Positions 15,268-30,445 of a DNA stretch of 43,317 nt are shown in pieces. The stretch is from Terrimicrobiaceae bacterium (GTDB lineage: Bacteria > Verrucomicrobiota > Verrucomicrobiia > Chthoniobacterales > JAATET01). Location of the stretch: positions 1-43,317 of the forward strand of contig JAQTOP010000020.1 of NCBI GenBank assembly GCA_028713285.1, read 5' to 3'. Both the position numbers and the translations under genes were made by a program. The notes under the pieces are model-generated. The model was not told the DNA's origin. It saw nothing but the letters and a program-made list of their open reading frames with translations, and did no database searches. The number at the start of each line of letters is the position of its first letter. Position 1 is the stretch's first letter.

Positions 15268-17904
15268 ATGCGGAGAACCTCATCCGATCCCTCTCAGTCG
15301 CACGCGGATGTTCTCGAAGAGGAACTCCGGGACGCCGGGTCGCCATGCACGGAGAATGCGGCGGACCCGCAGGATCGGCTGAGGGCCATCCACCGGCACA
15401 TCCACGCTCTCGATTCGAAGCGTTCGGCGCTCTGCCTCTCCGGCGGCGGAATTCGCAGCGCCAGTTTCGGGCTCGGCGTCCTCCAGGCGCTCGCCCGCGC
15501 CGGTTTGCTTGGAAAATTCGACTACCTCTCGACCGTTTCGGGCGGCGGCTACATTGGTGGTTGGTTCACCGCGTGGATTCAGCATCATCCGAAGGGTCAG
15601 GCTGGTGTGATCGAGGAACTCAGCGCGCCGCCGACCGCTCCCACCCAGCCGGAATGCGCGCCGATCCGCCACCTCCGGGCCTTCGGCAATTATCTCACTC
15701 CACAGCTTGGCGTCCTTTCGGCGGATGCCTGGACGCTCGCCGCGACGGTGCTTCGGGACATCCTGCTCAATTGGATCGTTCTGCTCTCGTGGCTCGCCGC
15801 GCTCCTGCTCATCCCCCGCTTCTCGGTGTTTGCCGTGCTGGCCCGCCCCGATCCGTTCACGCTGCACGTCCTGCTCGCATGCGCCTTTGTGAGCCTCGCC
15901 GCGGCGACGGCGTATGCGGGCATCGATCTTCCGAGCCTCGGCAACGCCCGGTGGCCGCAGCGGCGCTTCCTCGCAGGGTGGCTTGCTCCCATGACCGGCG
16001 CCGCCGCTTTTTTCTGCGCGTGGTGGGCGGGCTTTCGAAACACCAGCGACCTCGCGGGACCGCTGATGTCGTCGCTCTGCGGTCTGGTCCTGATCCAAAT
16101 TTTCGTCGGCCTCGCATCCGGAGCCGGGTGTGTGGCGAGTGCCGTGTTTCTCGCTCTTCGGGATCGCAGGGGGAAATCCCGCGCCTTCGCGCCGGATCGA
16201 ATCAAGCGCCTTGTCGGCATGGTGCTCGTCACCGTGCTGCTCACGGGTGCGCTGACGGGCTTCTTCGCCTGGTCGATCGCATCGCTGGTATTTCCAGATC
16301 CGGCGCGTGCCGCGCGGAATTTTTCATGCTTTGCGGTGCCGCTGCTGCTCGCGCTTTTTTTCGTTGCGAATTGCGTCTTCAACGGCGTGACGAGCTGGTG
16401 GGCGGATGATCAGGACCGCGAGTGGTGGGGCCGTGCGACGGGCTGGCTTTGTGCGGGAATTGCCGGCTGGGCGATTCTCCACGGATTGGTTCTCTGGGCG
16501 CCGGGAATCGTCGCGCAGATCGAAATCGCGGAAATCTGGAAGTGGCTGCTGGCTGCCTTTGGCGGAGTGCTGGGAATCGTCGCGGCAATCCTCGGCTTCA
16601 GCAAGGGCACCGTCGCCCAGTCGCCGGGCAGCTCGCCGTTTTCACGCAGCCGGCTCCTCGCGGCCGCCGCGCTCGGATTTTTTGTTCTCCTCTCCTGCGT
16701 GCTCTCCCTGTTTCTCGACGCTCCCGGCGGTCAATTGAAGGATCCGGCGTATTTGTGGGACGCCCGGGTGCGGGTGCAGTTCGCCGGGCTGCTCGGGCTC
16801 ATCGGCGTCCTCGCCGCCATCGGCGTGGCCATGGGTTTTTTCATCAACGTCAACAAGTTCTCGCTGCATGCCGTGTATCGGAACCGCCTCATCCGGGCCT
16901 TCCTGGGCGCATCGCGGGCGGAGCGCAAGCCGCATTGGTTCACGGGCTTCGATCCCGAAGACAACATCAAGATCCATCGTCTCAAACCCGGACGTCCTTT
17001 TCATGTCGTCAACATCGCCCTCAATCTCGTCAAGGGAGGCCAGCTCGCCTGGCAGGAGCGCAAGGCGGCGTCGTTCACCGTGAGCCGCCTGCACTGCGGG
17101 AGCTGGCCGCTCGGCTACCGTCCCGCAGCTCAATACGGAAACGGGATCAGCCTTGGAACGGCGCTCGCGGTCTCCGGCGCTGCCGCGAGCCCCAACCAGG
17201 GCTACAATTCCTCGCCGCTCGTCGCCTTCCTCATGACGCTCTTCAATCTCCGACTCGGCTGGTGGCTGGGCAATCCCGGCCGCCACGGCGCCCGCACCTG
17301 GCGTCGCCACGGCCCGCTCCACGCCGCGCTGCCCTTGTTCAACGAAGCGCTGGGCAACACGACGGATACCTACCCCTACGTGTATCTGTCGGACGGCGGC
17401 CATTTCGACAATCTGGGCCTCTACGAAATGGTGCTCCGGCGCTGCCGCCACATCGTCGCCATCGACGCCGGCTGCGATTCCGCTTACGTCTTCGAGGATC
17501 TCGGAAATGCCATCCGAAAAATCCGCATCGATTTCGGGATTCCCATCGACATCCGCGTCGTCTCGCCGAAGAAGCAGGGTGCCACGGCAGCCTATTTTGC
17601 CATCGGGACCATCCGCTACTCCGCGATCGACGGACCCGGCACCGACGGAAAATTGCTCTACATCAAGCCCGTGATCTGCGGCGCGGAGCCCGCGGACGTC
17701 GCCCATTACGCCGCCGCCCACCCGGACTTTCCCCACGAATCCACCAGCGATCAATGGTTCAGCGAGTCCCAGATGGAGAGCTACCGCGCCTTGGGATTCC
17801 ACGCGGTCAGCGCCATTTGCCAGGACTTGAAATCGCCGGATATTGCTTCGTTGTTCGCGGGATTGGAGGCGCGCCCGGCTTCGATTTCTTCCCGGGCAGC
17901 CTAG
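15268..17904 (+). CDS. Polytopic membrane patatin-like phospholipase
   Basis: Patatin-like enzymes hydrolyse acyl esters of phospholipids with a Ser-Asp dyad. In this 878-residue protein the oxyanion loop SGGGIRSASFGLGVLQAL lies at 58-75, the nucleophile elbow STVSGGGYIGG has Ser91, and the catalytic Asp709 is in LSDGGHFDNLGLYE. Between them lie about ten hydrophobic segments (roughly residues 155-535), so the dyad is divided by a membrane domain. The residue at the first Gly of GxSxG is Thr. Release of fatty acyl chains at the membrane is the likely activity. It lies 28 bases after ybaB and 99 bases before a five-gene oxidative cluster that it may feed, but it need not be co-transcribed with either. 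Confidence 0.87.
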   Translation: MRRTSSDPSQSHADVLEEELRDAGSPCTENAADPQDRLRAIHRHIHALDSKRSALCLSGGGIRSASFGLGVLQALARAGLLGKFDYLSTVSGGGYIGGWFTAWIQHHPKGQAGVIEELSAPPTAPTQPECAPIRHLRAFGNYLTPQLGVLSADAWTLAATVLRDILLNWIVLLSWLAALLLIPRFSVFAVLARPDPFTLHVLLACAFVSLAAATAYAGIDLPSLGNARWPQRRFLAGWLAPMTGAAAFFCAWWAGFRNTSDLAGPLMSSLCGLVLIQIFVGLASGAGCVASAVFLALRDRRGKSRAFAPDRIKRLVGMVLVTVLLTGALTGFFAWSIASLVFPDPARAARNFSCFAVPLLLALFFVANCVFNGVTSWWADDQDREWWGRATGWLCAGIAGWAILHGLVLWAPGIVAQIEIAEIWKWLLAAFGGVLGIVAAILGFSKGTVAQSPGSSPFSRSRLLAAAALGFFVLLSCVLSLFLDAPGGQLKDPAYLWDARVRVQFAGLLGLIGVLAAIGVAMGFFINVNKFSLHAVYRNRLIRAFLGASRAERKPHWFTGFDPEDNIKIHRLKPGRPFHVVNIALNLVKGGQLAWQERKAASFTVSRLHCGSWPLGYRPAAQYGNGISLGTALAVSGAAASPNQGYNSSPLVAFLMTLFNLRLGWWLGNPGRHGARTWRRHGPLHAALPLFNEALGNTTDTYPYVYLSDGGHFDNLGLYEMVLRRCRHIVAIDAGCDSAYVFEDLGNAIRKIRIDFGIPIDIRVVSPKKQGATAAYFAIGTIRYSAIDGPGTDGKLLYIKPVICGAEPADVAHYAAAHPDFPHESTSDQWFSESQMESYRALGFHAVSAICQDLKSPDIASLFAGLEARPASISSRAA

Positions 17905-17936
17905 GAATGGTTCCTTAAATTTCGGGAAAAATATCC

Positions 17937-17966
17937 TTGCCAACCGCAGCGGTGGGTTGCTACGAG
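17937..17966 (+). promoter_or_regulatory. Possible sigma-70-like promoter
   Basis: In the 99-base gap before the diheme cytochrome gene, TTGCCA (17937-17942) and TACGAG (17961-17966) are spaced by 18 bases, resembling a -35/-10 pair about 40 bases before the ATG. The preceding sequence is AT-rich relative to its surroundings. This is pattern matching only. Confidence 0.25.
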
Positions 17967-18003
17967 CACGGGGCTGGTCGTTGTTCGTGGAACCCTGCAC
18001 GAC

Positions 18004-20148
18004 ATGGAGCTCATCGCGAAAATTTTTCCGGGAGTCTGCTGCGCGGCTTTGGCGTTTGGCTCGCTGGCCGGGTGTTCGAAGAAGCCCATTGTCGATGAGG
18101 CGAGAGCCGCAGGGAAGACGACGGCGGATTTTCCGAAGGTGACGGCCGATGTGTTCGCGCCGATGGACCGGGGAAGCGTCCGCGAGAAGCTGAGCCCGCA
18201 GGAAATCATGGGCCGGAATACGTGGCTCCTGTGGTCGGCGGGGAACGAGCATTTTTGGAACAGCGTCGCGCAGGACAGCTACGGCCTGATGGACCTGCTC
18301 AAGATGCTGGACAACCGCAAATACCCGCGCGGCGAGCGATTCAAGAGGCTCGGCCTCGTGAACGAGCCCGGCTTCAAGGCGCCGACGAAGCCGGATGAGT
18401 TCGGCCTCTGGCTCGATGCACCCACCGGGCCCGAGCCCGCCGGCATCGATGAGAAAGTCTATGGCAAGCCGTCGGGCGTGCTCGGTTTCCGGCTCTTTCC
18501 GAATCCGGATTTTGACGAAAAGGCCCGCAGGAAGTGGGACGGCGAACGGTTCGCAAACGACCCGGCGTATTACAACGACAACACGCTCGTGCGGCCCTAT
18601 CGCGTCGGCGTTTCGTGCGGGTCGTGTCATATCGCGCCGAATCCCGTCAACCCGCCGGCCGATCCCGAGAATCCGAAATGGGAGAACCTGTCGTCGGCGA
18701 TCGGCAACCAATACATCAACGAGGGCCGGGTCTTCGCGTGCAATGTCCAGAAAGGCGGACTGTTCAACGAGATGATCGAGAACCAGCCGCGCGGCACTTC
18801 GGATACGTCGCGCATCGCCACCGACCACATCAACAACCCGAATGCGATCAACCCCATCTTCCTGCTCGCCGAGCGCCAGCGCATCGCCGCGACCGAAAAG
18901 ATCGCCGGCGGCGCGCTCAACATCCCGGGTGAGAAAATGGAGATGGCCGTGCCCCATATTTTGAAGGACGGCGCGGATTCCGTCGGCGTGCCCGGTGCGA
19001 CGATTCGCGTCTATGTGAACATCGGATTGTTTTCCCAATACTGGCTCTCCCGGCACAACCGGCTGATCGGGCTCACGCCGCAAAAGCCATTCGAAGTCGC
19101 GTATGCCCAGGCGAACTCGGTGTTCTGGCGGGCCACGGAAGAGCGGGTCGCCGACATCGCGGCATTTTTCAAAAAGCTGCAGCCGCTGCACCTCGCCGAC
19201 GCTCCCGGCGGCGCGGACTACATCACCAGGGACGAGGCGCTGATGGCCCACGGCAAAATGGTCTTTGCCGAGAGCTGCGCGGAATGCCATTCGAGCAAAC
19301 AGCCGCCGCCGCCCATCGACGCCAGCTCCGGCGAAGGCAGGCAGTGGTTGAGCGCGGAGATCGTGAAGCCGGATTTTCTCGCGAATAATTTTCTGTCCAC
19401 CGACCGGCGCTACCCGATTTCGAAGATCGAGACCAACGCCTCGCGGGCCATGGGAACGAACGCCATGCGCGGCCACGTGTGGGATAATTTTTCCTCGGAG
19501 ACCTACAAGAACCTGCCCGCGATCGCCGAGCGGGAATGGTATAATCCCTTCGATGAATCCCGGCCCATCCTGTTCACGCCCTACGGCGGCGGCCCGGGCT
19601 ATTATCGGGTGCCCTCGCTCGTGAGCGTCTGGAGCTCGGCGCCATTCTTCAACAACAACGCGCTGGGCAAGTTCACCGGCGACCCCTCGGTGGCCGGGCG
19701 GATGGAAGCCTTCAACGACGCGGTGCAGAAACTGCTCTGGCCGGAAAAGCGCCTGGGGAAGGCCTCGATCTGGCGCACGGAGAACGAATGTTCCCTCCAG
19801 ATTCGAAAGGAATTCCTTCCCGCTCCCCTGCAAAAACTGGCCGACGCCGACGGCTTCGTGCGCATCGGCCCGATTCCGAAAGGCACGCCGGTCAACCTTC
19901 TCGCGAACCTCGATCCCAACCTCGCCCAATTGGTTCGGATCAAGGCCGAGGTCATTCCGGCCCTTGTCAAAATCAAGGCGCAAAACCTGCAGGGGGAAGC
20001 GGCCGCAGCCGAGCTGAGAAAGGTGGTGCCGGCTCTGCTCGATGCCAACAAGTGCCCCGACTTCATCGAAGACAAGGGCCACTATTTCGGCTGCGATCTT
20101 CCCAACGAGGACAAGCTCGCGCTGATCGAATACCTCAAAACCCTGTGA
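18004..20148 (+). CDS. Diheme c-type cytochrome lipoprotein, RoxA-like candidate
   Basis: The 714-residue protein has a lipoprotein signal ending LAFGSLAGC (Cys24) and two heme c attachment motifs, CGSCH at 205-209 and CAECH at 425-429. It should therefore be an envelope-anchored, exported diheme protein. Size and the roughly 200-residue spacing of the hemes resemble rubber oxygenases of the RoxA/RoxB type (about 680 residues, hemes near 191 and 390), which cleave carbon-carbon double bonds of polyisoprene with O2. Diheme peroxidases of the MauG/CcpA group are usually shorter. Substrate is therefore a hypothesis: a double bond in a lipid or isoprenoid. The next gene starts 3 bases after its stop, and the cluster continues with heme-enzyme relatives. 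Confidence 0.8.
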   Translation: MELIAKIFPGVCCAALAFGSLAGCSKKPIVDEARAAGKTTADFPKVTADVFAPMDRGSVREKLSPQEIMGRNTWLLWSAGNEHFWNSVAQDSYGLMDLLKMLDNRKYPRGERFKRLGLVNEPGFKAPTKPDEFGLWLDAPTGPEPAGIDEKVYGKPSGVLGFRLFPNPDFDEKARRKWDGERFANDPAYYNDNTLVRPYRVGVSCGSCHIAPNPVNPPADPENPKWENLSSAIGNQYINEGRVFACNVQKGGLFNEMIENQPRGTSDTSRIATDHINNPNAINPIFLLAERQRIAATEKIAGGALNIPGEKMEMAVPHILKDGADSVGVPGATIRVYVNIGLFSQYWLSRHNRLIGLTPQKPFEVAYAQANSVFWRATEERVADIAAFFKKLQPLHLADAPGGADYITRDEALMAHGKMVFAESCAECHSSKQPPPPIDASSGEGRQWLSAEIVKPDFLANNFLSTDRRYPISKIETNASRAMGTNAMRGHVWDNFSSETYKNLPAIAEREWYNPFDESRPILFTPYGGGPGYYRVPSLVSVWSSAPFFNNNALGKFTGDPSVAGRMEAFNDAVQKLLWPEKRLGKASIWRTENECSLQIRKEFLPAPLQKLADADGFVRIGPIPKGTPVNLLANLDPNLAQLVRIKAEVIPALVKIKAQNLQGEAAAAELRKVVPALLDANKCPDFIEDKGHYFGCDLPNEDKLALIEYLKTL

Positions 20149-20151
20149 AAT

Positions 20152-20607
20152 ATGACCATCGCCGAACTCAAGAAAATGTCGCAAAAGGAACTCGATGATC
20201 TCTTTCGCGCCAAGCCGGCCGGGCCGATACCTGACGGAGAAGCCAAGGGCACGGCGCTCGTTCTTCCGGGCACGCCCGTCACGAATCTCATCGCGGATCT
20301 CGTTCGCCTGAAAGTCTGGAAAGGAAAGGTCTTCGAGCGCGACAAGAACGACCCGAACAAGGGCATCCTCCACAACAAGATTCTCCCATTGGGCCATCTC
20401 GCCATCGAGGCGAACGTTTACAAGGACAAGAGCTGGCTGGATGGCGCGGAGTGCGTCGTCCTCGATTACTCGGAGACGTCGTTGATCGCAAAAAAGGTCC
20501 GGGATGAGATTCGCGAAATCGAACCGGGCTTCTATCTCGGCAAGGTCTATTGGGGCAAAAAGCGCACCATCGACTTCGCCCTGGAATTTCAAAGGAGCGG
20601 CAAATGA
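20152..20607 (+). CDS. Conserved-looking protein of unknown function (151 aa)
   Basis: This soluble 151-residue protein has no signal peptide or membrane helix. It starts MTIAELKKMSQKELDDLFRA. Prominent segments are PAGPIPDGEAKGTALVLPGT, LPLGHLAIEANVYKDKSWLD, ECVVLDYSETSLIAKKVRDE and GFYLGKVYWGKKRTIDFALEF, which suggest a small beta-rich fold of lipocalin or similar size. I do not recognise a named family. Its position, 3 bases after the diheme cytochrome gene and 4 bases before the catalase-fold gene, means it is almost certainly co-translated with them and probably handles the same ligand or product. Confidence 0.8.
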   Translation: MTIAELKKMSQKELDDLFRAKPAGPIPDGEAKGTALVLPGTPVTNLIADLVRLKVWKGKVFERDKNDPNKGILHNKILPLGHLAIEANVYKDKSWLDGAECVVLDYSETSLIAKKVRDEIREIEPGFYLGKVYWGKKRTIDFALEFQRSGK

Positions 20608-20611
20608 GGCG

Positions 20612-21895
20612 ATGCCGCACAGGCACAGCCGGCGCGCCCGCCTGACCAACGCTGATTTTCCCGTGCCTTCGGATTCGAACACCAGCCGTCCGGCTCCGAG
20701 GGCCAACACGGGCTCGGCATTTCTGAATGCGGTGAGCGACACCTTCACCTTCCTCCTGCTGGCCGAGCGGAGGATCGATCCCTTTATCCGTCCGGCTTTC
20801 GACGCCGTCCTGCGCGACCCGATTGCGAGCCTGACGACCGCATGGATCAATCGGAAGCGCCCCAATGAGGGGCTGCGAATTGCGGAGGAAAGGCTCCTTC
20901 CGAACGAAGAGGCGCACCTGGATTCCATCATCGCGAGCTTCATGAAGCAGATGAGTTTGCTTTGGAAACCGGGGGGATACGAACGCGGCGGGAACACGAA
21001 GACGCACGGCATGGTGCGCGGGGAATTCATCGTTCACGACGGCCTCCCGGCCAGCCTGCGGCACGGAATCTACGCGCAGCCGCGCACATTTCCGGCGTGG
21101 GTTCGGTTCTCCGGGCCCGGGCCCTATGTGACACCGGACATCGACGACGTGGGCTTCATGAGCATCAGCATCAAGCTCATGGACGTGCCCGGACCGAAGT
21201 TGATGGACGATGAGAAATTCACGCAGGACCTGTTCGGCGTCTCGACGCCGACGTTCGTCACGCCGGACACCATCGCCAACGCGCAACTCCAGATCGAGAG
21301 CGTGAAGAACGCGCAGATTTTTTATTTCCTCAATTTTCACCGCCCGCACGTCGCGGACCTCATCATGCAATCGCTCTGGATCAAGACGCAGAGCAGTCCG
21401 CTCGAGGCGCCGTATTTCAGTTGCGTGCCCTACCTCCTCGGAGAAGGCCGGGCGATGCAATACTCGGTCTGGCCGAAATCCAAAAAACGCACGCCGGTGC
21501 CGCGCCTGCCGTTTCGTCCGCCGCACGATTATCTGCGCGCCGCCATGGCCGCCTCGCTCGCGGAAGGGGACGTCGAATTCGAAATCCGCCTGCAACCGCA
21601 GACCGATCCGCACCTCATGCCGATCGAAAACAACGCCGTGCTCTGGCCGGAAAAACTCTCGCCCCGCATCCCCGCGGCGACCCTTCGCCTGCCCCGGCAA
21701 AAGTTTGACTCCCCGGCGCAAATCGATTTTGCCCGCCGCCTCACCTACAACCCCTGGCACTGCGTTCCCGAGAATCGTCCGCTTGGCAACCAAAGCCGGG
21801 CGCGCGGGCGCATGTATGCGACGCTTTCCAAACTGCGGCAATCGAAGAACGCCGTGGAGCACTATGAACCAACCGGAGACGAAGTTTTCGAGTGA
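20612..21895 (+). CDS. Catalase-fold heme protein lacking canonical catalase distal residues
   Basis: The 427-residue protein has the catalase-superfamily outline: GMVRGEFIVHDGLP, PAWVRFSGPGP, and the proximal heme motif RxxxY as RGRMY with Tyr402 and Arg398. It corresponds to the short catalase-like group (y4iL/SrpA-like) and not to true catalases. In the straightforward alignment, the distal His of catalase falls on Asn128 (ERGGNTKTHG, 124-133) and the distal Asn segment GNNTP becomes GVSTP (209-213). Catalase activity is therefore doubtful. Relatives with altered pockets, such as coral allene oxide synthase, act on fatty-acid hydroperoxides. The start at 20612 lies 4 bases after the previous stop; a longer reading upstream overlaps that gene and is rejected. 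No signal peptide. Confidence 0.82.
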   Translation: MPHRHSRRARLTNADFPVPSDSNTSRPAPRANTGSAFLNAVSDTFTFLLLAERRIDPFIRPAFDAVLRDPIASLTTAWINRKRPNEGLRIAEERLLPNEEAHLDSIIASFMKQMSLLWKPGGYERGGNTKTHGMVRGEFIVHDGLPASLRHGIYAQPRTFPAWVRFSGPGPYVTPDIDDVGFMSISIKLMDVPGPKLMDDEKFTQDLFGVSTPTFVTPDTIANAQLQIESVKNAQIFYFLNFHRPHVADLIMQSLWIKTQSSPLEAPYFSCVPYLLGEGRAMQYSVWPKSKKRTPVPRLPFRPPHDYLRAAMAASLAEGDVEFEIRLQPQTDPHLMPIENNAVLWPEKLSPRIPAATLRLPRQKFDSPAQIDFARRLTYNPWHCVPENRPLGNQSRARGRMYATLSKLRQSKNAVEHYEPTGDEVFE

Positions 21896-21901
21896 CGCCC
21901 C

Positions 21902-23203
21902 ATGACTCCGCAGTCGAGCTTCATGGTCCTCGCGCCGATCCTTCCTTCGTGCGAAGGGGAATTGCGCGGTTTGCTCGCTTCGATGAATGCCGCGCCGGGC
22001 CGCGTGGACGTAAACAACCCCCTCATTCCCTTCGCCGAGTTCGACACGCTGCATTTCGCGCGCCTCATCATTCTCGATGACACAACGACCGAAGATGTCC
22101 GCGCGCACGGCCTGCCCGTCCGCATTTATCCGCTCTACCTCGCGTTCCTTGGGGACTGCGACGGCGACGAAGACGCCTTTCTCCGCGAGGCCTCGACGCG
22201 CGCGCCGGACGGATTGCGGGCGATCTTTTCCTGTTGCGACGGATTCACTTCCGATGCCGATCTCGTCGATTGGATGAAGGCGCGCAGGTGTCCGGCCATC
22301 GCGAATTACGTGAACTGGCGCGGCCGCACCGTCGCGCGCATTCGCGAGGAGGCGGCGCTCTGGGATGCAATCTCCGGTCTGCTGGCGTCCAATGTGCCAT
22401 CATTTCAGGCGCTTTCGCCGCCGGAGATTCACGCAAAGTTGCGCGAGTTCGTGCAAGCGGAGACCTCGGCGGGTCGCCTGAAGTTGTCCCCGGAGAGCCC
22501 GACGCCTTTCGGCGGATGGATGACCGACAAGCTCCATCTGGTAGGCGTGCCCTTGCTGCTCCTGCTGTTCCTGCCGCTCCTCGTCGTGATCGCCCCAATC
22601 TACATCCTCCTCCTTCGCCGCCTCGAGAAGACGGATCCCGAAATCTGCCCGACGGCGGACCAGGCATACTCGGACGCCCTCTCGCTCATCGAGGACCACG
22701 ACGTCACGAATCAATTCAGCGCGATGGGCAGCCTGAAGCCCGGCATCGTGCGCCTTCTGACGGTGATCGGAGTGCTCGGCACGGTCGATTATGCCGCGCG
22801 GCATATCGTCAGACGGGGCCGGCTGGGACGCATCCGCTCGATCCATTTTGCACGCTGGGTGTTCCTCGATAGTGGAAAGCGGATGATCTTTTTCAGCAAT
22901 TACGACGGCAGCGTCGAGAGCTACATGGACGAATTTATCAACAAGACGGGTTTCGGTTTGAACATGTCCTTTAGCAACGGCATCGGCTACCCGCGGACGA
23001 ACTGGCTTGTGCGCGACGGATGCCTCGACGAGCGGAAATACAAGGAATACCTCCGCCGCCACACGCTGCCGACCCAGGTCTGGTATAAGGCCTATCCGGG
23101 TCTGACGGCGGTCGATCTGGAAAGAAACACGCGCCTCCGCGACGGCGTCGAACGGTCGTCGCTGACCGGGCAGGAACTCCGCGAATGGGTTGCACTCCTA
23201 TGA
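21902..23203 (+). CDS. Membrane protein with two HFAR modules, unknown function
   Basis: The 433-residue product has two related soluble segments. The first contains LHFARLIILD (50-59) and DCDGDEDAFLRE (85-96); the second contains IHFARWVFLD (314-323) and NYDGSVESYMDE (333-344). Between them is a strongly hydrophobic hairpin-like stretch near 212-242 and a weaker one around 280-300. I do not know a named family. The repeated pattern suggests a duplicated ferredoxin-like (dimeric alpha+beta barrel) module, the same general fold type as DyP peroxidases, but this is inference. The gene begins 6 bases after the catalase-fold gene, and its stop overlaps the DyP start (ATGA), tying it to both. Confidence 0.78.
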   Translation: MTPQSSFMVLAPILPSCEGELRGLLASMNAAPGRVDVNNPLIPFAEFDTLHFARLIILDDTTTEDVRAHGLPVRIYPLYLAFLGDCDGDEDAFLREASTRAPDGLRAIFSCCDGFTSDADLVDWMKARRCPAIANYVNWRGRTVARIREEAALWDAISGLLASNVPSFQALSPPEIHAKLREFVQAETSAGRLKLSPESPTPFGGWMTDKLHLVGVPLLLLLFLPLLVVIAPIYILLLRRLEKTDPEICPTADQAYSDALSLIEDHDVTNQFSAMGSLKPGIVRLLTVIGVLGTVDYAARHIVRRGRLGRIRSIHFARWVFLDSGKRMIFFSNYDGSVESYMDEFINKTGFGLNMSFSNGIGYPRTNWLVRDGCLDERKYKEYLRRHTLPTQVWYKAYPGLTAVDLERNTRLRDGVERSSLTGQELREWVALL

Positions 23204-24687
23204 AATCCGGCAAGATCGACTACGGCGATGTGCAAGGTTTGGTCCGCTTCGGATACAAGCGGATGACGCAGGCGCGTTACGATCTCCTCCGAGTGAAGAA
23301 CGCCACTGCGGCCCGTGCCTGGCTGCGCGCCGCGCCGGTGACCACTGCCGTGTCGATGGACCCGCCGCCCAAAACCGCCCTGCAGATCGCGTTCACGGCG
23401 CCGGGTCTCCGCGCGCTCGGCCTGCCGGAATCCGCGATTGCAGGCTTCTCGCACGAGTTCCGCACCGGAATGGCGACGGAAAGCCGCGCGCGGCAGTTGG
23501 GCGATGTCGGAAGCAACGCGCCCGAATGGTGGGCGTGGGGCGGCCGCTCGAAGGAGCCGCATCTGGTCGTCATGTTTTTTGCCGAACCGGGACACTTCGA
23601 ATCGCTGGTCGAGATCTGCACCGGAGCCGCGTGGCAGGAGGCTTTTGAGCCGCTCGTGCCGCCCCTGGGCACGGCGGACCTCGATGGCATCGAACCCTTC
23701 GGATTTGTGGACGGAATCAGCCAGCCGCAAATCGACTGGGAGCAATCGAAGAAAACGTCCGATCCCCAGCTCGACTACACGAACATCGCCGCCCTCGGCG
23801 AGTTCCTGCTGGGCTATCGAAACGAATACGGAAAACTCACCGAGCGGCCGCTGCTCGAGCCCAGCGCCGCGAGCGAGGGGTTGCTCGCCGCGGCGGACGA
23901 TTCCGCAAAAAGAGATCTCGGTGTCAACGGCACCTATCTCGTGATGCGCCAGCTCCAGCAGGACGTGCGGGGGTTTTGGGAATTCGTCAACGGGCAGTCC
24001 GGCGGCAATCCGGCGGAAGCCGCGAAGCTGGCCGCGGCGATGGTGGGCCGCACGACGGGCGGCGACCCGCTCGCGCCTGTCCGAGATGAGCCGATCCCCG
24101 GAGTCGATCCGCAGGACGCTGCCGCAAATCAATTTACGTTCGATCAGGATCCGACGGGCAGCCGGTGCCCCTTTGGCGCGCACGTCCGCCGTGCGAATCC
24201 ACGGAATGCCGATTTTCCGGGCCGCCCGGCCAATTTCCTGAAGAAGCTCATCATCATGCTCGGCTTTGGGCCGAGAGGTTTCCGGGACGACCTGGTGTCG
24301 CCCGTGCGCTTTCATCGCATCCTGCGGCGCGGCCGCGAATACGGCGTCGAGCCGCCTCCGGCGACGCCACCGACCGCCGATCCCGAGCGCGGGCTGCATT
24401 TCATTTGCCTCAACGCCAATATCTCGCGCCAGTTTGAGTTCCTGCAAAACGCCTGGATCGCGAACACCAAATTCTCCGGCTTGAGCGGCGAGAGCGACCC
24501 GCTGCTCGGCAATCGCCAGACGATCCCGGGGTGTCCGGTGAGCAGCGATTTCAACATCCCGGCCGAGGGCGGGCTGCGGCGCCGCGTCTCGGGACTGCCG
24601 CAATTTGTCACCACGCGCGGCGGCGCCTATTTTTTTCTCCCGAGCATCCGGGCGCTGCGCTACTTCGCCGCACTCGGAGACGGATAG
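23200..24687 (+). CDS. DyP-type peroxidase
   Basis: Dye-decolourising peroxidases are heme enzymes that use H2O2 or other hydroperoxides to oxidise bulky substrates. The 495-residue product has the catalytic GxxDG motif as GFVDGISQP with Asp171, the proximal heme ligand His328 in CPFGAHVRRANPR, and the distal Arg in HRILRRG (372-378). All the core residues are present, so an active peroxidase is expected. No Tat or Sec signal is visible, so it would be cytosolic unless carried by a partner such as the neighbouring membrane protein. The ATG at 23200 overlaps the preceding stop by 4 bases and was preferred over one 5 codons upstream. Confidence 0.92.
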   Translation: MKSGKIDYGDVQGLVRFGYKRMTQARYDLLRVKNATAARAWLRAAPVTTAVSMDPPPKTALQIAFTAPGLRALGLPESAIAGFSHEFRTGMATESRARQLGDVGSNAPEWWAWGGRSKEPHLVVMFFAEPGHFESLVEICTGAAWQEAFEPLVPPLGTADLDGIEPFGFVDGISQPQIDWEQSKKTSDPQLDYTNIAALGEFLLGYRNEYGKLTERPLLEPSAASEGLLAAADDSAKRDLGVNGTYLVMRQLQQDVRGFWEFVNGQSGGNPAEAAKLAAAMVGRTTGGDPLAPVRDEPIPGVDPQDAAANQFTFDQDPTGSRCPFGAHVRRANPRNADFPGRPANFLKKLIIMLGFGPRGFRDDLVSPVRFHRILRRGREYGVEPPPATPPTADPERGLHFICLNANISRQFEFLQNAWIANTKFSGLSGESDPLLGNRQTIPGCPVSSDFNIPAEGGLRRRVSGLPQFVTTRGGAYFFLPSIRALRYFAALGDG

Positions 24688-24752: not shown

Positions 24753-25616
24753 ATGACGGCGAGATGGATGGCAATGCGGCATGCGGGCGCGGGATGGATC
24801 GCGGCTGGCCTCCTCGCGTCCACGGGCATCACCGCTTCCGGCGCCGAAATCGACGCGGACGCGTGGTCGCGGTATATGAGCAACGCCTCGAATTCCGACG
24901 TTCCGAGCCAGCGGCTGGCGGATGTTTTCCTCGGCGGACGCATCGGCGTGGGCGTGTCGGGCGTGATCGGCCGCGACTGGCGGTGGCATGGCGGAATTCT
25001 CACCGAAGGCGACGTGGCGCTGCGCTATCCCGGGCTCAGCCAGATCGAGGGCGGCGCGAAGGCCGGGCTCGAGTATAAATTCGGACTGGGTTGGCGGGCT
25101 CCCAAGCTGCAGGCGGAGATTTATTCCGGCGCGCGGGCGGCGGGGCAGGCCGGCGCCTCCGGGCTGAGGCTCGCGCCGTCGGTCGGGGTCACCTGGCAAT
25201 TTGCCGAACGCTGGGGCGTGAGCGGACGCTACGCGCCGGAGTGGTTCTACGCCGAGGGCGCGCTTTTCGACTCCGCCTCGCATTCGCTCTCGGCCTCGGC
25301 GTGGTTCGACGTCTTTCCGGCGACGCGCTTGCAATTGACCGGCGGCTTCCGCCACGGCGACGTGGTGTCCTACGCGATCCCGCCCCGCCCGGATCTCGTG
25401 GCGCTTGCCGATGTCAAGCAGCCGACCGATGTCTTCGGCGGCGAACGGATTGCCTATCGTTTTGTTGCGGATACCTACAGCCTCGAGATCGCGATCGATC
25501 AAACGCTGACCGAGCGGTTGAGCTTGCGGGCCGCATACCGATGGGAGATCACGCAAAAGGACGCCGTCGATTATGGAAACCATATCCTCGAATTCGGGAT
25601 TCGGTCCCAATTTTAA
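24753..25616 (+). CDS. Outer-membrane beta-barrel protein
   Basis: The 287-residue product has a signal peptide (hydrophobic AAGLLASTGITASGA, cleavage near residue 31) and then alternating amphipathic strands such as RIGVGVSGVIG, AGLEYKFGLGW, SVGVTWQFAERWGVSGRYAP and LEFGIRSQF, ending in Phe as outer-membrane barrels usually do. No specific transport substrate can be assigned. Its end overlaps the following copper-protein gene by 44 bases, so the two are linked, and the cyclase gene follows. Either ATG at 24753 or one a few codons on (24768) could be the start. Confidence 0.75.
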   Translation: MTARWMAMRHAGAGWIAAGLLASTGITASGAEIDADAWSRYMSNASNSDVPSQRLADVFLGGRIGVGVSGVIGRDWRWHGGILTEGDVALRYPGLSQIEGGAKAGLEYKFGLGWRAPKLQAEIYSGARAAGQAGASGLRLAPSVGVTWQFAERWGVSGRYAPEWFYAEGALFDSASHSLSASAWFDVFPATRLQLTGGFRHGDVVSYAIPPRPDLVALADVKQPTDVFGGERIAYRFVADTYSLEIAIDQTLTERLSLRAAYRWEITQKDAVDYGNHILEFGIRSQF

Positions 25617-26247
25617 GCCCCTGATCCTCGCGGTGGCCGCACTCGTTCTTGGCATTGGCGCGGCGCGGGCGGCCGACGTGACGGTGCTCGCGAAGGACGA
25701 TAAAGGTCGCGCCGTTCCGGATGCCGCCGTTTGGGTCGAGCAGGCGGGAAAACAGGCGCGGCCAAAACCGGTCGAGACCGAGATCGTCCAGAACCATCGG
25801 CAATTCATTCCGCGGGTGACGGTGATACCGGTCGGAAGCTCCGTGCAATTTCCCAACCGCGACACGGTGCAGCATCACGTCTATTCGTTCAGCCCGGCGC
25901 GGACCTTCGAGCTGCCGCTCTACATCGGCGAGTCGCCCCGAACGATCAACTTCGATCAGGCGGGCGTCGTGACCCTCGGCTGCAACATTCACGACTGGAT
26001 GTCGGCCAGCATCGTGGTCGTGAACACGCCATTTTTCGCGGTCACCGATGCCGGAGGGCGGGCGGTCGTGCGCGGCGTGCCCGGCGGCGACGTCGTCATT
26101 CACGTATGGCACCCGCGATTGCGCGGCGAGGCGATCGAGTGGCGGGCCGACCTTTCGGGCGGATCGATCCAGCGCGAGGCGGCGCTCAAGCTGCGGCCGG
26201 AATTCCGTCGGACGCCGCCGGATGCCGATGGAGGGACCTACCGCTGA
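25573..26247 (+). CDS. Periplasmic cupredoxin-like protein
   Basis: The 224-residue product has a signal peptide (PLILAVAALVLGIGAARA) and a plastocyanin-like core often annotated as methylamine-utilisation protein. Candidate type 1 copper ligands are His101 or His102 in TVQHHVYSF and Cys137, His140, Met143 in GCNIHDWM, all present. The C-terminal part (GRAVVRGVPGGDVVIHVWHP) resembles a carboxypeptidase-regulatory-like beta sandwich. A role in periplasmic electron transfer or copper sensing is likely. The gene overlaps the barrel gene by 44 bases and the cyclase start by 4 bases, forming a compact trio. Confidence 0.83.
   Translation: METISSNSGFGPNFKPLILAVAALVLGIGAARAADVTVLAKDDKGRAVPDAAVWVEQAGKQARPKPVETEIVQNHRQFIPRVTVIPVGSSVQFPNRDTVQHHVYSFSPARTFELPLYIGESPRTINFDQAGVVTLGCNIHDWMSASIVVVNTPFFAVTDAGGRAVVRGVPGGDVVIHVWHPRLRGEAIEWRADLSGGSIQREAALKLRPEFRRTPPDADGGTYR
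26230..26235 (+). promoter_or_regulatory. Shine-Dalgarno supporting a CTG start
   Basis: GGAGGG lies 8 bases before the CTG at 26244 and inside the end of the cupredoxin gene. There is no ATG, GTG or TTG in frame close upstream. This is the main reason for assigning the cyclase start to CTG. Confidence 0.55.
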
Positions 26248-27959
26248 AGCTGCATTTCTCCAGCCTGCGCGGGCGACTGGTGGCGGTGATCCTGTTGCTC
26301 CTCGCCGCCACGCAGGCGGCGACCTTTCTGCTCGTGGCGGCGGCGTCGCGCAGGGCCGCGCGCGAACGGATCGCGGTGGAATTGAGCGAAGCGTCGCGCA
26401 CGTTCGAGCGCATCGTCGAGCGGCGAATCCGGGAGTTGGGCCGCGCCGTCGAGCTGCTTTCGAGCGACTACGCGTTCGCATCGACCTTCACGCAGCTTCG
26501 CGAATCCAACAGCGCCGTCGCGCGGGCGACGCTCGAGTCCGCGCTCGAGAATTACCGGGGGCGCATCGGATCGGCGTCATTCCTTCGGCTGGTGTCGCTG
26601 GACTACAAGCTCCTGGCGGGCACGGAGCGGTCTGCTTCTGCGGGCGCCGGCGTTTCGGATCGTGCGGTCTTCGCCGCGGCGGAGGACTCGCCCGATTTCG
26701 AGGCGACGGCGGTCGAGGCACGCGATGGCCGCGCGCATCTCGTCGTGGTGCGTCCGCTGCTCACGCCCGACCCCGCGGCCTGGATCGTCGTCGGCTTCCC
26801 GCTCGACGACGCGCTGGCGGGGGAGTTTCGGGAGTTGAGCGACTTCGAGACCACATTCATCGACAAGGGGCGCATGGTGGCATCGACTTTTCACGACGCG
26901 CTTCGGCGGGATCTGGCGGGCGGCATTGCGCGGGGCGGGGAGCGCGCCGGGGCGGGGCTGCGCGAGGTGAGGCTGGGGAGTGCGCCTTATCTCGGAAGCG
27001 TCCTCGCGTTTCCCGGCGATCCGGATCACCGCGCCGCGATCGTCGTGCTGCGCTCCCTCGACACCGAACTTGCGCCGTTTCGAAAGCTCGAGAACGTGCT
27101 CCTGGCGCTGAGCGCCATTGCGCTGGGCGGCTCCGCGGTGGTGGGGTTCTTCGTTGCGCGCGGCGTTGCCCGGCCGGCGGTCCGGCTCGCCGAGGGCGTG
27201 CAGAAAATCGAGCGGGGCGACTACCGCGCGCGGGTGCCGGTGGAAACGCACGACGAGCTGGGCCGCCTCGCGGGCGCATTCAATCAAATGGCGGCGGGGC
27301 TACAGGAGCGCGACAAGGTGCGCGACATTCTCGGCAAGGTCGTCTCGCCCGAGATCGCGCGCGAGCTGATGAATTCCGAGGTGGCGCTTGGCGGAGAAGT
27401 GCTGGAGGCGTCCGTCCTCTTCACCGATTTGCGGGGTTTCACGGCCTTCAGCGAGACGCAAAGCCCGCAGGCGCTCGTCAGCCAGCTCAACGTCTATTTC
27501 ACCGCGATCACCGAGGCGGTCGAGGCTCACGGCGGCATTGTGGACAAGTATGTCGGCGATGCGGTGATGGCCGTCTTCGGCGCGCCCGTGCGCGTCCCGG
27601 ATCATGCGGACCGCGCCGTCGAGGCGGCGCTTGCGATCCTGCATGCGGAGGAGCGGCTCAATGGCGATCGCGCGAGCGAGGGACTGCCGCCTTTTCGGAC
27701 CGGCATCGGAATCAGCGCGGGAGTTCTCGTGGCGGGGAACATCGGCTCCGCGACGCGGCACAACTACACCGTCATCGGAAACGAGGTGAATCTCGCGTCG
27801 CGACTCGAGGGCCTGACGAAGTCGCCGGAATTCCGCGCCCGGATCATTTGTAGCGACGCGGTGCGCGAAGCATTTCAGCGTCCGCATTCCCTTCGCGATC
27901 TCGGAGAAACGGAGATTCGCGGGAAGGCTCGATCGCTCCGCATCTGGGCCGTCGAGTGA
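26244..27959 (+). CDS. Membrane-bound class III adenylate cyclase with extracytoplasmic sensor and HAMP
   Basis: The protein makes cAMP from ATP in response to an outside cue. Read from CTG 26244 it has 571 residues: a membrane helix (about 12-35), an extracytoplasmic sensor domain of CACHE-like size (about 36-280), a second helix (about 285-310), a HAMP linker (VARPAVRLAEGVQKIERGDY on) and a cyclase domain. Metal-binding Asp395 (LFTDLRGFTAF) and Asp439 (DKYVGDAVMAVFG), purine-contacting Lys435 and Thr509, and transition-state Asn516 and Arg520 (VNLASRLE) are intact. The CTG overlaps the preceding stop (CTGA) and follows GGAGGG at 26230; a GTG at 26280 would remove the charged N-terminus (KLHFSSLRGR). 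Neighbours suggest it senses something linked to the copper protein. Confidence 0.9.
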   Translation: MKLHFSSLRGRLVAVILLLLAATQAATFLLVAAASRRAARERIAVELSEASRTFERIVERRIRELGRAVELLSSDYAFASTFTQLRESNSAVARATLESALENYRGRIGSASFLRLVSLDYKLLAGTERSASAGAGVSDRAVFAAAEDSPDFEATAVEARDGRAHLVVVRPLLTPDPAAWIVVGFPLDDALAGEFRELSDFETTFIDKGRMVASTFHDALRRDLAGGIARGGERAGAGLREVRLGSAPYLGSVLAFPGDPDHRAAIVVLRSLDTELAPFRKLENVLLALSAIALGGSAVVGFFVARGVARPAVRLAEGVQKIERGDYRARVPVETHDELGRLAGAFNQMAAGLQERDKVRDILGKVVSPEIARELMNSEVALGGEVLEASVLFTDLRGFTAFSETQSPQALVSQLNVYFTAITEAVEAHGGIVDKYVGDAVMAVFGAPVRVPDHADRAVEAALAILHAEERLNGDRASEGLPPFRTGIGISAGVLVAGNIGSATRHNYTVIGNEVNLASRLEGLTKSPEFRARIICSDAVREAFQRPHSLRDLGETEIRGKARSLRIWAVE

Positions 27960-27975: not shown

Positions 27976-29190
27976 CTACGCTTTCGCCGCAACCTGCGCG
28001 GCGAGGTAAACCTCCCGCACGCTGGCTCCGGCGGCCTCGGCCGCCCGACGGCACGATTCGAACTCCGGCGCCGCCTGCACCAGCTCGTCGCCGAGCCAGC
28101 CGCGTTTGATTTCCACGGCGCCAAAAGGCGTGCCGACGGCGACGATCTCGCGGCGCAGCTTCAACCGGCGGCAATCGTGCATCCGCACCCCGAAGGCGCT
28201 CGTCTCGCGCAGGATCAACCGCGCGAACTCGTCCGCCCGCGCCGGTTCCGTGAGCACCGTGAGCCGGAAGGCGGGCCGGTTTTTCTTCATGTGAATCGGA
28301 GCGACAAAGACGTCGAGCGCTCCGGCATCCAGCAGCTTCGCGGTCGCGGCGGCGAGGAGTTCCGGCGAAAGATCGTCGAGGTTGCTCTCGATTTCGGTGA
28401 CCGTGTCGCTTTCGGCGTCCTCCGACGTTTCACCGAGCACGGCGCGCAGCACATTCGGACGATGCGGCGTGTCGCGCGTGCCGGCGCCGTAGCCGATGCG
28501 CTCGACGGCGAGTGCGGGCATGGGGCCGAAGCTGACGGCGAACTCCGCGAGCAGCGCCGCGCCGGTCGGCGTGATGAATTCCATCGGCTCCTCGATCTGG
28601 CCGAGCGGAATGCCGGCGAGGATTTCGAGCGTGGCCGGGGCGGGGAGGGGAAAATGTCCATGCGCGCAATGGATGGTACCCGTGCCTTCGACCAGCGCCG
28701 AGGCGATCACGCGCGGAGCGCCCAGGGATTCCAGCGCGAGGCAAAACGCGACGATATCCACGATGGAATCCACCGCGCCCACCTCATGAAAATGCACCTC
28801 CTCCGGCAACATGCCGTGGATTTTACCCTCGGCGACGGCGATGCGTTGAAACACCGCGACGGCTCGCGATTTCACGAAGGACGACAGCCCGCCCGCCTCG
28901 ATCAATGCGCGAATGTCGGCAAAGCTGCGTCCGTGCGCGTGCGGTTCGTCGCCATGGTCGTGATGCGGATGGCCGTGCGAATGGGAATGCTCGCGCAGAT
29001 GCACATCGAATTTCACGCCCTCGATTCCGCAGCGAATCTGCCGCGAGAAATGCAGGTGGAATTCGCCGCCGAGTCCGAGTTTTTCGAGTTCGCTCGCCAG
29101 GGCTTTCTGATCAGCGCCGAGATCGCACAGCGCGCCCACGGCCATGTCGCCGCCGATGCCGGAAAAACAATCGAGAAACAGGGTGCGCAT
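27976..29190 (-). CDS. larC: Nickel-pincer cofactor biosynthesis protein LarC
   Basis: LarC inserts nickel into the pyridinium bis-thiocarboxylate cofactor in a CTP-dependent reaction; the cofactor serves lactate racemase and related racemases. The 404-residue product starts MRTLFLDCFSGIGGDMAVGAL, the family N-terminus, and has EEVHFHEVGAVDSIVDIVAF, FITPTGAALLAEF and ESNLDDLSPELLA, all LarC landmarks. A His-rich loop (HSHSHGHPHHDH) follows around residues 83-100 and may store or deliver nickel. Here the protein is one continuous frame, whereas Lactobacillus splits it by frameshift. No larB or larE is in the window. The start at 29190 was chosen over a long upstream extension that is antisense to the next gene. 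Confidence 0.93.
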   Translation of the reverse strand: MRTLFLDCFSGIGGDMAVGALCDLGADQKALASELEKLGLGGEFHLHFSRQIRCGIEGVKFDVHLREHSHSHGHPHHDHGDEPHAHGRSFADIRALIEAGGLSSFVKSRAVAVFQRIAVAEGKIHGMLPEEVHFHEVGAVDSIVDIVAFCLALESLGAPRVIASALVEGTGTIHCAHGHFPLPAPATLEILAGIPLGQIEEPMEFITPTGAALLAEFAVSFGPMPALAVERIGYGAGTRDTPHRPNVLRAVLGETSEDAESDTVTEIESNLDDLSPELLAAATAKLLDAGALDVFVAPIHMKKNRPAFRLTVLTEPARADEFARLILRETSAFGVRMHDCRRLKLRREIVAVGTPFGAVEIKRGWLGDELVQAAPEFESCRRAAEAAGASVREVYLAAQVAAKA

Positions 29191-29218
29191 GGTTCCAACG
29201 TGCCGTAGGGGTGGCACA

Positions 29219-30445
29219 ATGGCATGTCGGCTTTTACTCGGCAATGTCGCTGCGTTTGTTTTCCCGTTCCTCGCATCGGCTGCATCCCTGCCTGAATTCG
29301 CGGCGCTCAATGCGGCTTTCGGCGTTCCGGTTTGGGCGGACGACAATTTGTGGGACGATTCCGATATCGACGTGGCTCGACGGCTGCAATGGCAGCCCGA
29401 ATCGAGCACGAACGACGATTCCAGTTTCCGCCGATATGCCGGTGCGAACGAGAGAGTTCTCGGCGCGCGTCCATTCTCGCTGGCCCTCCATGGCAAGGGC
29501 GGAAATGCCGACGAAATCTCGATGGTTTTCGCAAACAAGGGAGATGTTGGCGCCTCCGAAAACTATCGCCTGGGAATGGATTACAAGAAGCAGATTGCGG
29601 CAGATACACGGACGATTCGCGAGACGCTCACCCGCGCGCTGGGGCCTGCGAAAGCGGCGCAATTCGGCCAGGGAGCGCGGACGCGTGAGCGGGTCGAGCG
29701 CTGGGACTGGAACGGCCACGCCATTTTGCTCGCGGCGCCGCGCGGCGAATACGTGGCAGTGCGCATCGTGCCCACTGCGACCGCGGACGGCGAAGATTCC
29801 GGCCGGGTGACGGAACTCGATCTGCGCGAGAAGCTCAAGGCGCGCGTCGTGCGCCGGCCAAACGGCGACGTCGTGTTGAAGGACATTCCCATGGTGGACC
29901 AGGGGCCGAAGGGATATTGCGTGCCGGCGACCTGGGAGCGCGCGCTGCGATATCTTGGCATCCCGGCGGATATGTATGTTCTGGCGATGGCCGGGCAGGT
30001 CGAGCTGGGGGGAGGAATGACTTCCGATGCGATGATGGCTGGCGCGAACGACATTGTCGTTCGGAATGGCCGTCGCATGGTGACAACCGGTGGACGCCTG
30101 ACTACACGGGCGGTTGCCAGCTTTATCAACGCCGGCTTGCCGATCATTTGGGACATGCTTCTCGTACGGGAACTGGAGGTGAATATCACTTATCGCACAA
30201 TGTACCGTCTGAATGTAAGCGACTGGGATGATTATCGGCAGATGCTGAAGCCGTGGCGAAAGAGTGCAACCCGCATCCGGACGAACGAAAACGACGCCCA
30301 CATGTGCATGATCATCGGCTATAATTTTAGCACCGGCGAGATAGCGATCTCGGACTCGTGGGGGCCGGAATTTGCCGAGCGATGGATCACCGAAGAAGAG
30401 GCAAACGCGATCAGCGGTGGACGTTTCACGGTGGTGACGTGGTAG
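29219..30445 (+). CDS. Secreted C39-like papain-fold protein
   Basis: The 408-residue product has a signal peptide (MACRLLLGNVAAFVFPFLASA). The first 210 residues have no motif that I recognise. The C-terminal part carries a C39-type peptidase pattern: DQGPKGYCVPATWERALRYLG with Cys234, and NDAHMCMIIGYN with His361 followed by IAISDSWG. This is a papain-like layout with Cys, His and Asp. It may be a secreted protease or an inactive binding version. The start at 29219 follows a G-rich stretch (GGGGTGG) and lies 28 bases from the divergent larC start; an upstream start would overlap larC. Confidence 0.78.
   Translation: MACRLLLGNVAAFVFPFLASAASLPEFAALNAAFGVPVWADDNLWDDSDIDVARRLQWQPESSTNDDSSFRRYAGANERVLGARPFSLALHGKGGNADEISMVFANKGDVGASENYRLGMDYKKQIAADTRTIRETLTRALGPAKAAQFGQGARTRERVERWDWNGHAILLAAPRGEYVAVRIVPTATADGEDSGRVTELDLREKLKARVVRRPNGDVVLKDIPMVDQGPKGYCVPATWERALRYLGIPADMYVLAMAGQVELGGGMTSDAMMAGANDIVVRNGRRMVTTGGRLTTRAVASFINAGLPIIWDMLLVRELEVNITYRTMYRLNVSDWDDYRQMLKPWRKSATRIRTNENDAHMCMIIGYNFSTGEIAISDSWGPEFAERWITEEEANAISGGRFTVVTW

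Follow-up and report, generated by a model that had tools for sequence, protein, structure and literature searches.

A five-gene block in a Terrimicrobiaceae bacterium as a candidate heme redox module for lipid oxidation

A contig of a Terrimicrobiaceae bacterium of the Verrucomicrobiota (JAQTOP010000020.1, positions 1 to 43,317; this entire stretch is referred to as the window) carries six consecutive open reading frames (ORFs) on the forward strand between positions 15268 and 24687. They encode, in this order, a patatin-like protein, a diheme cytochrome, a protein of 151 amino acids (aa), a catalase-fold protein, a protein termed HFAR, and a DyP-type peroxidase. The locus raises the question of whether these genes form a unit and, if so, on which type of compound it acts. 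An earlier note made from the DNA sequence alone had described a row of six genes, five of them tightly packed, which the ORF coordinates confirmed. From the second gene (18004) on, the spacing is 3, 4, and 6 bases, and the HFAR and DyP genes share 4 bases when the latter is started at its second ATG (23200) or 19 bases when it is started at the first (23185); the patatin gene is separated from the cytochrome gene by 99 bases. Our analysis indicates, with a probability of about 0.5, that the five genes at 18004-24687 are a horizontally spread heme redox module that most likely oxidizes a fatty acid or a similar lipid. The collection of papers searched contained no description of this gene set.

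Recurrence of the gene row across phyla

To compile related loci, aligned catalase-fold sequences were used to scan a genome collection; of the resulting 197 relatives, the best 80 loci were read. This survey was anchored on the catalase-fold gene alone, and its percentages describe only these closest 80 loci. Their titles span Cyanobacteria, Acidobacteria, Verrucomicrobia, Proteobacteria, Nitrospira, Chloroflexi, and Planctomycetota. Wide flanks (at least 8 kb to the left and at least 4.5 kb to the right of the catalase-fold gene) were available for 49 loci; among these, HFAR and DyP were found in 48, the 151-aa protein in 47, and the cytochrome in 43, and all five genes were present together in 43. 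Their order varied: cytochrome, 151-aa protein, catalase-fold protein, HFAR, and DyP in Verrucomicrobia; cytochrome, GMC oxidoreductase, 151-aa protein, HFAR, DyP, and catalase-fold protein in Variovorax; and 151-aa protein, HFAR, DyP, and catalase-fold protein in Cyanobacteria, besides further arrangements. Where HFAR and DyP are both on the forward strand (68 loci), their genes overlap by 4 or 19 bases in 54 cases. A GMC oxidoreductase was present in 34 of the 49 loci and absent from the window (this count and those for alpha-dioxygenases given below are from tblastn with chosen queries). The co-occurrence across phyla that the earlier note had named as a check was thus found in at least seven phyla, with the gene orders shuffled. 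Its list of members held for the cytochrome, the catalase-fold protein, HFAR, and DyP; it had not singled out the 151-aa protein as core, and GMC, being missing from the window, was not part of it.

Two further counts concern the relatives of the window. Among 289 sampled Verrucomicrobiota genomes, HFAR was present in one and DyP in two. The 151-aa protein was detected in 7 of 97 order-level genomes, one of the seven being that of the window; in 5 of the 6 others the remaining block surrounds its gene when larger stretches are considered; it was not found in same-genus genomes. Taken together, the 80-locus survey and the rarity of HFAR and DyP in Verrucomicrobiota demonstrate that the gene row is more than chance. 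The catalase-fold protein of the window shares 82% identity with a cyanobacterial and 80% with an acidobacterial copy versus 73 to 78% within its own order, which suggests transfer between phyla. The sequence comparisons suggest that horizontal transfer has carried the five genes together through at least seven phyla. The block is found in isolates of Variovorax, Rhodoferax, Rhodanobacter, and Stenomitos and in many uncultured soil groups.

The patatin had been regarded as a member of the system, a view that the survey did not sustain: it occurs in only 3 of the 49 wide-flanked loci, and a same-genus genome (G001) has the patatin without the block. We therefore rejected it as a core gene.

Partial and variant arrangements were also observed. 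(i) In plasmid records, HFAR domains adjoin DyP without the other block genes in Granulicella and Bradyrhizobium and are located beside DyP and catalase in Acinetobacter lwoffii and Deinococcus radiodurans; the clusters of the latter two (L017:2831-8524 and L100:6801-11027, respectively) adjoin a 3-hydroxyacyl-CoA dehydrogenase gene. (ii) P450-HFAR-DyP fusions of 1620 aa (L014:5793-10655, Sulfitobacter) and 1443 aa (L015:5841-10172, Novosphingobium) are encoded on plasmids, each beside a TPR protein. (iii) Locus L010, from a genome of the same taxonomic order as the window, has the cytochrome and 151-aa genes followed by two diheme cytochromes of the RoxA superfamily (L010:9945-13080) in place of the catalase-fold, HFAR, and DyP genes; these two score 164 and 195 bits against NF040606 (cut-off 150) and have RoxA-type motifs. 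(iv) A further protein, unnamed and containing two CxxCH motifs, is encoded in or beside the block at L043:5152-7125 (Nitrospira) and in L085 and L093 (Nitrospira and Sulfuricella-type loci).

Protein families, folds, and active-site residues

The features of the row, all on the forward strand, are as follows.

15268-17904, +, patatin-like accessory protein, rich in hydrophobic segments and not part of the core (PF01734, E=1.2e-6)
18004-20148, +, putatively exported diheme c-type cytochrome, probable distant RoxA/oleate-dioxygenase relative (two CxxCH, His693, NF040606 29.9 bits)
18616-18630, +, first heme motif, CGSCH (cytochrome alignment)
19276-19290, +, second heme motif, CAECH (cytochrome alignment)
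20080-20082, +, His693, likely distal ligand of the second heme (conservation and RoxA profile alignment)
20152-20607, +, core 151-aa protein of no known family or structure (recurrence in wide-flanked loci)
20612-21895, +, catalase-fold protein with remodelled distal side (profile, AlphaFold2, and Foldseek matches to 1u5u)
20993-20995, +, Asn128 in place of the catalytic distal His (alignment)
21239-21241, +, Val210 in place of the distal Asn, human Asn148 (alignment)
21815-21817, +, Tyr402 in RxxxY, expected proximal heme ligand (alignment)
21902-23203, +, HFAR protein, two ABM-like repeats and one hydrophobic helix (AlphaFold2, Foldseek, hhalign)
22052-22063, +, HFAR motif of repeat 1 (residues 51-54)
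22523-22627, +, single hydrophobic stretch of HFAR (about residues 208-242)
22844-22855, +, HFAR motif of repeat 2 (residues 315-318)
23185-24687, +, DyP-type peroxidase with complete active site, likely start 23200 (TIGR01413, PF20628)

Of the six proteins, only the patatin, the cytochrome, and DyP belong to recognizable sequence families; the 151-aa protein, the catalase-fold protein, and HFAR had no match in Pfam or NCBIfam, and the 151-aa protein had no PDB profile match either. The patatin scores 29.3 bits against PF01734 (cut-off 27.7) and has about 10 hydrophobic segments; inspection revealed the motifs GGGIRS, VSGGG, and DGG, the serine being in TVSGG and not in GxSxG.

The cytochrome has two CxxCH motifs (residues 205-209 and 425-429), present in all 55 relatives, and a conserved His693 that aligns with His641 of RoxA in a profile comparison (E=0.0044). 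The pattern of axial histidines (His209, His429, and His693) has spacings of 220 and 264 residues; the corresponding values for PA2077 of Pseudomonas aeruginosa are 245 and 236 (PMC4496055). These sequence features make the protein a probable distant relative of RoxA and the oleate dioxygenases. A lipobox, LAGC, is located near its N terminus; this and all other statements on signal peptides and lipoboxes are by inspection. A search of the window genome with NF040606 at its threshold retrieved no match.

The catalase-fold protein is the most conserved of the block (median identity of 74% over the 80 loci), and none of the 37 family members tested matched Pfam by sequence, PF00199 included. The label given to it in the earlier note was right: the best PDB profile match is the coral allene oxide synthase (AOS; 1u5u, E=7.4e-5), with catalases next, and in a Foldseek search with an AlphaFold2 model (pLDDT 75.5, pTM 0.81) 1u5u ranked first (E=5.5e-13) ahead of catalases (E about 1e-10). 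Both sides of the presumed heme pocket were inspected. (i) On the distal side, Asn128 aligns with His75 of human catalase and His67 of the coral AOS. Asn was found in 78 of 78 sequences, a count that is biased since GGNTKT served as a scan pattern; 13 of 13 distant relatives chosen without this pattern keep the distal His and thus provide an independent contrast. The Thr66-His67 pair of the coral enzyme (PMC5617202) is replaced by Gly127-Asn128, and the position of human Asn148 is occupied by Val210 (Val in 77 of 78). (ii) On the proximal side, Arg398 and Tyr402 of the RxxxY motif, which were placed by alignment with the distant relatives, are present in all 78 sequences. Tyr402, at the same position in those relatives, is expected to be the proximal ligand of a heme that the protein would bind. 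Given the two substitutions on the distal side, neither catalase nor allene oxide chemistry can be assumed.

HFAR, for which no Pfam family was found by sequence, was modelled with AlphaFold2 (pLDDT 89.4, pTM 0.89) as two ferredoxin-like repeats. These align with each other (hhalign probability 98, E=3e-13), which confirms a duplication, and the nearest structures in Foldseek are WhiE-ORFI (9lmn, E=3.8e-6) and Abx(+)O (9ltx, E=1.5e-4). According to the model, HFAR consists of two copies of an ABM-like (dimeric alpha+beta barrel) domain, joined by a continuous helix (residues 203-244) that contains the sole hydrophobic stretch. The earlier suggestion that HFAR might be a transporter was dismissed, given this single hydrophobic helix between two ABM-like domains. 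Profile comparison gave no support for HFAR as a DyP relative by sequence. DyP itself has a complete active site, namely, Asp176 (in GxxDG), the proximal His333, and the distal Arg381 (numbered from 23185), each present in 65 of 65 sequences. It scores above the cut-off of PF20628 (24.6 versus 20 bits) and below that of TIGR01413 (87.3 versus 100.5), and its closest structure is the D. radiodurans DyP (8re3, E=1e-42).

Downstream of the row, an unnamed ORF at 24753 precedes genes for a cupredoxin-like protein and a HAMP/adenylate cyclase protein (25573-27959). The genes at 24753-27959 were rejected as block members, since the loci of relatives contained no consistent homologues. They are followed on the reverse strand by a nickel insertion protein gene (27976-29538; PF01969, E=6e-137).

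Link to fatty acid alpha-dioxygenases and weighing of explanations

A PF03098 protein (alpha-dioxygenase, alpha-DOX) adjoins the block in five cyanobacterial loci (two of Stenomitos and one each of Lyngbya, a Synechococcales metagenome-assembled genome [MAG], and Microseira). The one tested matches the rice fatty acid alpha-dioxygenase at 2.7e-124, and the YRxH motif is kept in all five. In Microseira (L027), alpha-DOX is the first gene of a same-strand row, 11 bases ahead of the next; a 311-aa protein without a Pfam match (L027:5640-6575) follows alpha-DOX in cyanobacteria whether or not the block is present. Alpha-DOX was found in 6 of 7 module-bearing cyanobacterial genomes versus 4 of 292 sampled cyanobacteria (Fisher p=6e-10; 6e-7 when close relatives are collapsed), where one of the four positive sampled genomes is a module genome and the lineages are only partly independent. 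Two betaproteobacterial MAGs have, next to the 151-aa gene, a longer relative that contains YRLH and a lipobox-like stretch at its N terminus. Neither cytochrome nor GMC was found in the five cyanobacterial loci, from which we infer that alpha-DOX may stand in for the cytochrome; in the two betaproteobacterial loci, the cytochrome is present together with alpha-DOX. Patatins, though not core, recur beside alpha-DOX elsewhere: two other cyanobacteria have, in one row, alpha-DOX, a 303-aa protein, a GMC oxidoreductase 44 to 45% identical to that of the module, and a PF01734 patatin, and a Thermoanaerobaculia genome with the block has a long alpha-DOX relative near a window-type patatin, with an unrelated gene in between. 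An ORF of locus L041 (14578-17643) was rejected as alpha-DOX on alignment. Characterized cyanobacterial alpha-DOXs convert fatty acids to fatty aldehydes (PMC9305512).

Gene linkage, protein families, folds, and the active-site residues kept or lost were observed directly, and a possible route can be drawn from them in which the heme occupancy of the catalase-fold protein, the substrate, every reaction, and the passage of product between periplasm and cytoplasm are inferred. In a first step, an oxygenase would add O2 to the substrate; in the window this would be the exported RoxA-like cytochrome, and in cyanobacterial versions a true fatty acid alpha-dioxygenase may replace it. In a second step, the hydroperoxide or oxidized product would be processed by the catalase-fold protein and DyP, for which HFAR could be a partner or a substrate-positioning domain. 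Where present, GMC may oxidize an alcohol or aldehyde product or supply H2O2, and the patatin may release the acyl chain. A bolder version, which we put forward tentatively and which may well prove wrong, is an undescribed bacterial oxylipin pathway, spread across phyla by gene transfer, in which the distal-Asn catalase-fold hemoprotein, together with DyP and the duplicated ABM-like partner, would subject a lipid to a new type of reaction with hydroperoxide or O2.

The lipid assignment is supported by several lines of evidence: (i) the five genes recur in several orders in at least seven phyla; (ii) the sequence data point to lipids through the alpha-DOX beside the block, the similarity of the catalase-fold protein to the coral AOS, and the row of alpha-DOX, GMC, and patatin; and (iii) by analogy, the NF040606 cytochromes of L010, the known oleate diheme enzymes (PMC4496055), and the 3-hydroxyacyl-CoA dehydrogenase neighbours are consistent with it. 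The oxylipin-like route of the earlier note thus survives in part, through the alpha-DOX and patatin linkage, the nearest structure, and the distant RoxA-type cytochrome, whereas a coral-type allene oxide reaction was not upheld. A number of observations weigh against a lipid substrate. No gene of the window is itself linked to lipids by demonstrated activity, and no alpha-DOX was found in the window genome. The cytochrome scores far below the family cut-offs (29.9 versus 150 bits for NF040606; about 12 versus at least 900 for the Rox models). The His of the MauG-type motif PYxHNGSVP of RoxA and the oleate enzymes is not kept, the window having PFFNNNALG and the family consensus being APFLxNNxxG (the comparison with PA2077/PA2078 uses a published table with the reference motif PY(F/L)HNGSVP; PMC4496055). 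The distal His on which the coral AOS relies is missing from the catalase-fold protein. Of the block proteins, the cytochrome seems to be exported, while the others have no evident signal peptide. Finally, the structures nearest to HFAR are polyketide-tailoring proteins, which are compatible with secondary-metabolite oxidation as well.

This last point leads to the alternative that survives best, namely, that the block tailors a hydrophobic natural product (polyketide, terpenoid, hopanoid, or carotenoid), with HFAR, DyP, and a P450 or catalase-fold protein oxidizing an aromatic compound or isoprenoid. The HFAR fold, the P450-HFAR-DyP fusions of Novosphingobium and Sulfitobacter, and the isoprenoid cleavage by RoxA-type cytochromes (PMC6797691) agree with it. 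We nevertheless consider it rather unlikely: the recurrent neighbour families examined comprise no polyketide, terpene, or carotenoid synthase, and the recurrent additional genes are alpha-DOX, GMC, and patatin. Defence against peroxides or lipid peroxides, in which DyP and the catalase-fold protein would remove H2O2 or organic peroxides and the cytochrome would act as a periplasmic peroxidase, is less plausible still. Most block parts belong to peroxidase-like superfamilies, the DyP active site is complete, and the D. radiodurans relative adjoins a catalase-family gene. However, with its distal residues altered, the catalase-fold protein is not expected to act as a catalase, alpha-DOX and GMC as possible peroxide producers in the same row are unlike a simple defence, and the D. 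radiodurans DyP was reported to be inactive at physiological pH (PMC10820274). That two or more unrelated units (cytochrome and 151-aa protein; HFAR, DyP, and catalase-fold protein) travel together with no common pathway is improbable, since random neighbours would not persist together in 43 of 49 loci with varied orders, even though L010 has the first pair without the rest, HFAR and DyP stand without the others in Granulicella and Bradyrhizobium, and divergence differs strongly between block parts. Anti-phage defence was rejected, as PADLOC gave no match.

Comparison with known systems

If the lipid assignment is correct, the block would add one more bacterial oxylipin route, in at least seven phyla, to the few that are known. 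It also places DyP peroxidases, few of which have a known natural substrate, in a gene context; this applies as well to the D. radiodurans enzyme, which is puzzling in its physiology although its structure is solved. In addition, it draws attention to a catalase-fold family that is unnamed in Pfam and is the most conserved in the block despite the loss of catalase residues.

Five known systems resemble the block in part. (i) The oleate 10S-dioxygenase and diol synthase of P. aeruginosa are diheme proteins of the RoxA superfamily (PMC4496055), and their pathway (PA2077/PA2078, FadCcp; PMC4496055, PMC5155153) shares with the window an exported cytochrome of this type with two CxxCH motifs and a C-terminal His. 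It differs in having two cytochromes, as described without DyP, HFAR, or catalase-fold partners, and in PYFHNGSVP, which the window lacks. (ii) The rubber oxygenase RoxA (4b2n; PMC6797691) likewise has two c-type hemes at a similar spacing and a C-terminal His (His641, corresponding to His693), but the sequence link is weak and its MauG-type motif is not kept. (iii) The coral AOS/hydroperoxide lyase system (catalase-related; 1u5u; PMC5617202) is nearest in fold and profile, with the positions of the heme-contacting Arg and proximal Tyr kept, whereas its His67 and Asn137 correspond to Asn128 and Val210 here and no lipoxygenase domain is present. (iv) The fatty acid alpha-dioxygenases of plants and cyanobacteria (4kvj; PMC9305512) are gene neighbours in cyanobacterial and betaproteobacterial blocks but are absent from the window and its genome. 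(v) The DyP of D. radiodurans (DR_A0145, 8re2/8re3; PMC10820274) is the closest solved DyP, and a DyP gene of D. radiodurans lies after an HFAR gene and before a catalase-family gene; this cluster differs in that HFAR has a single repeat, the catalase-family protein keeps the distal His, and no cytochrome or 151-aa gene was seen.

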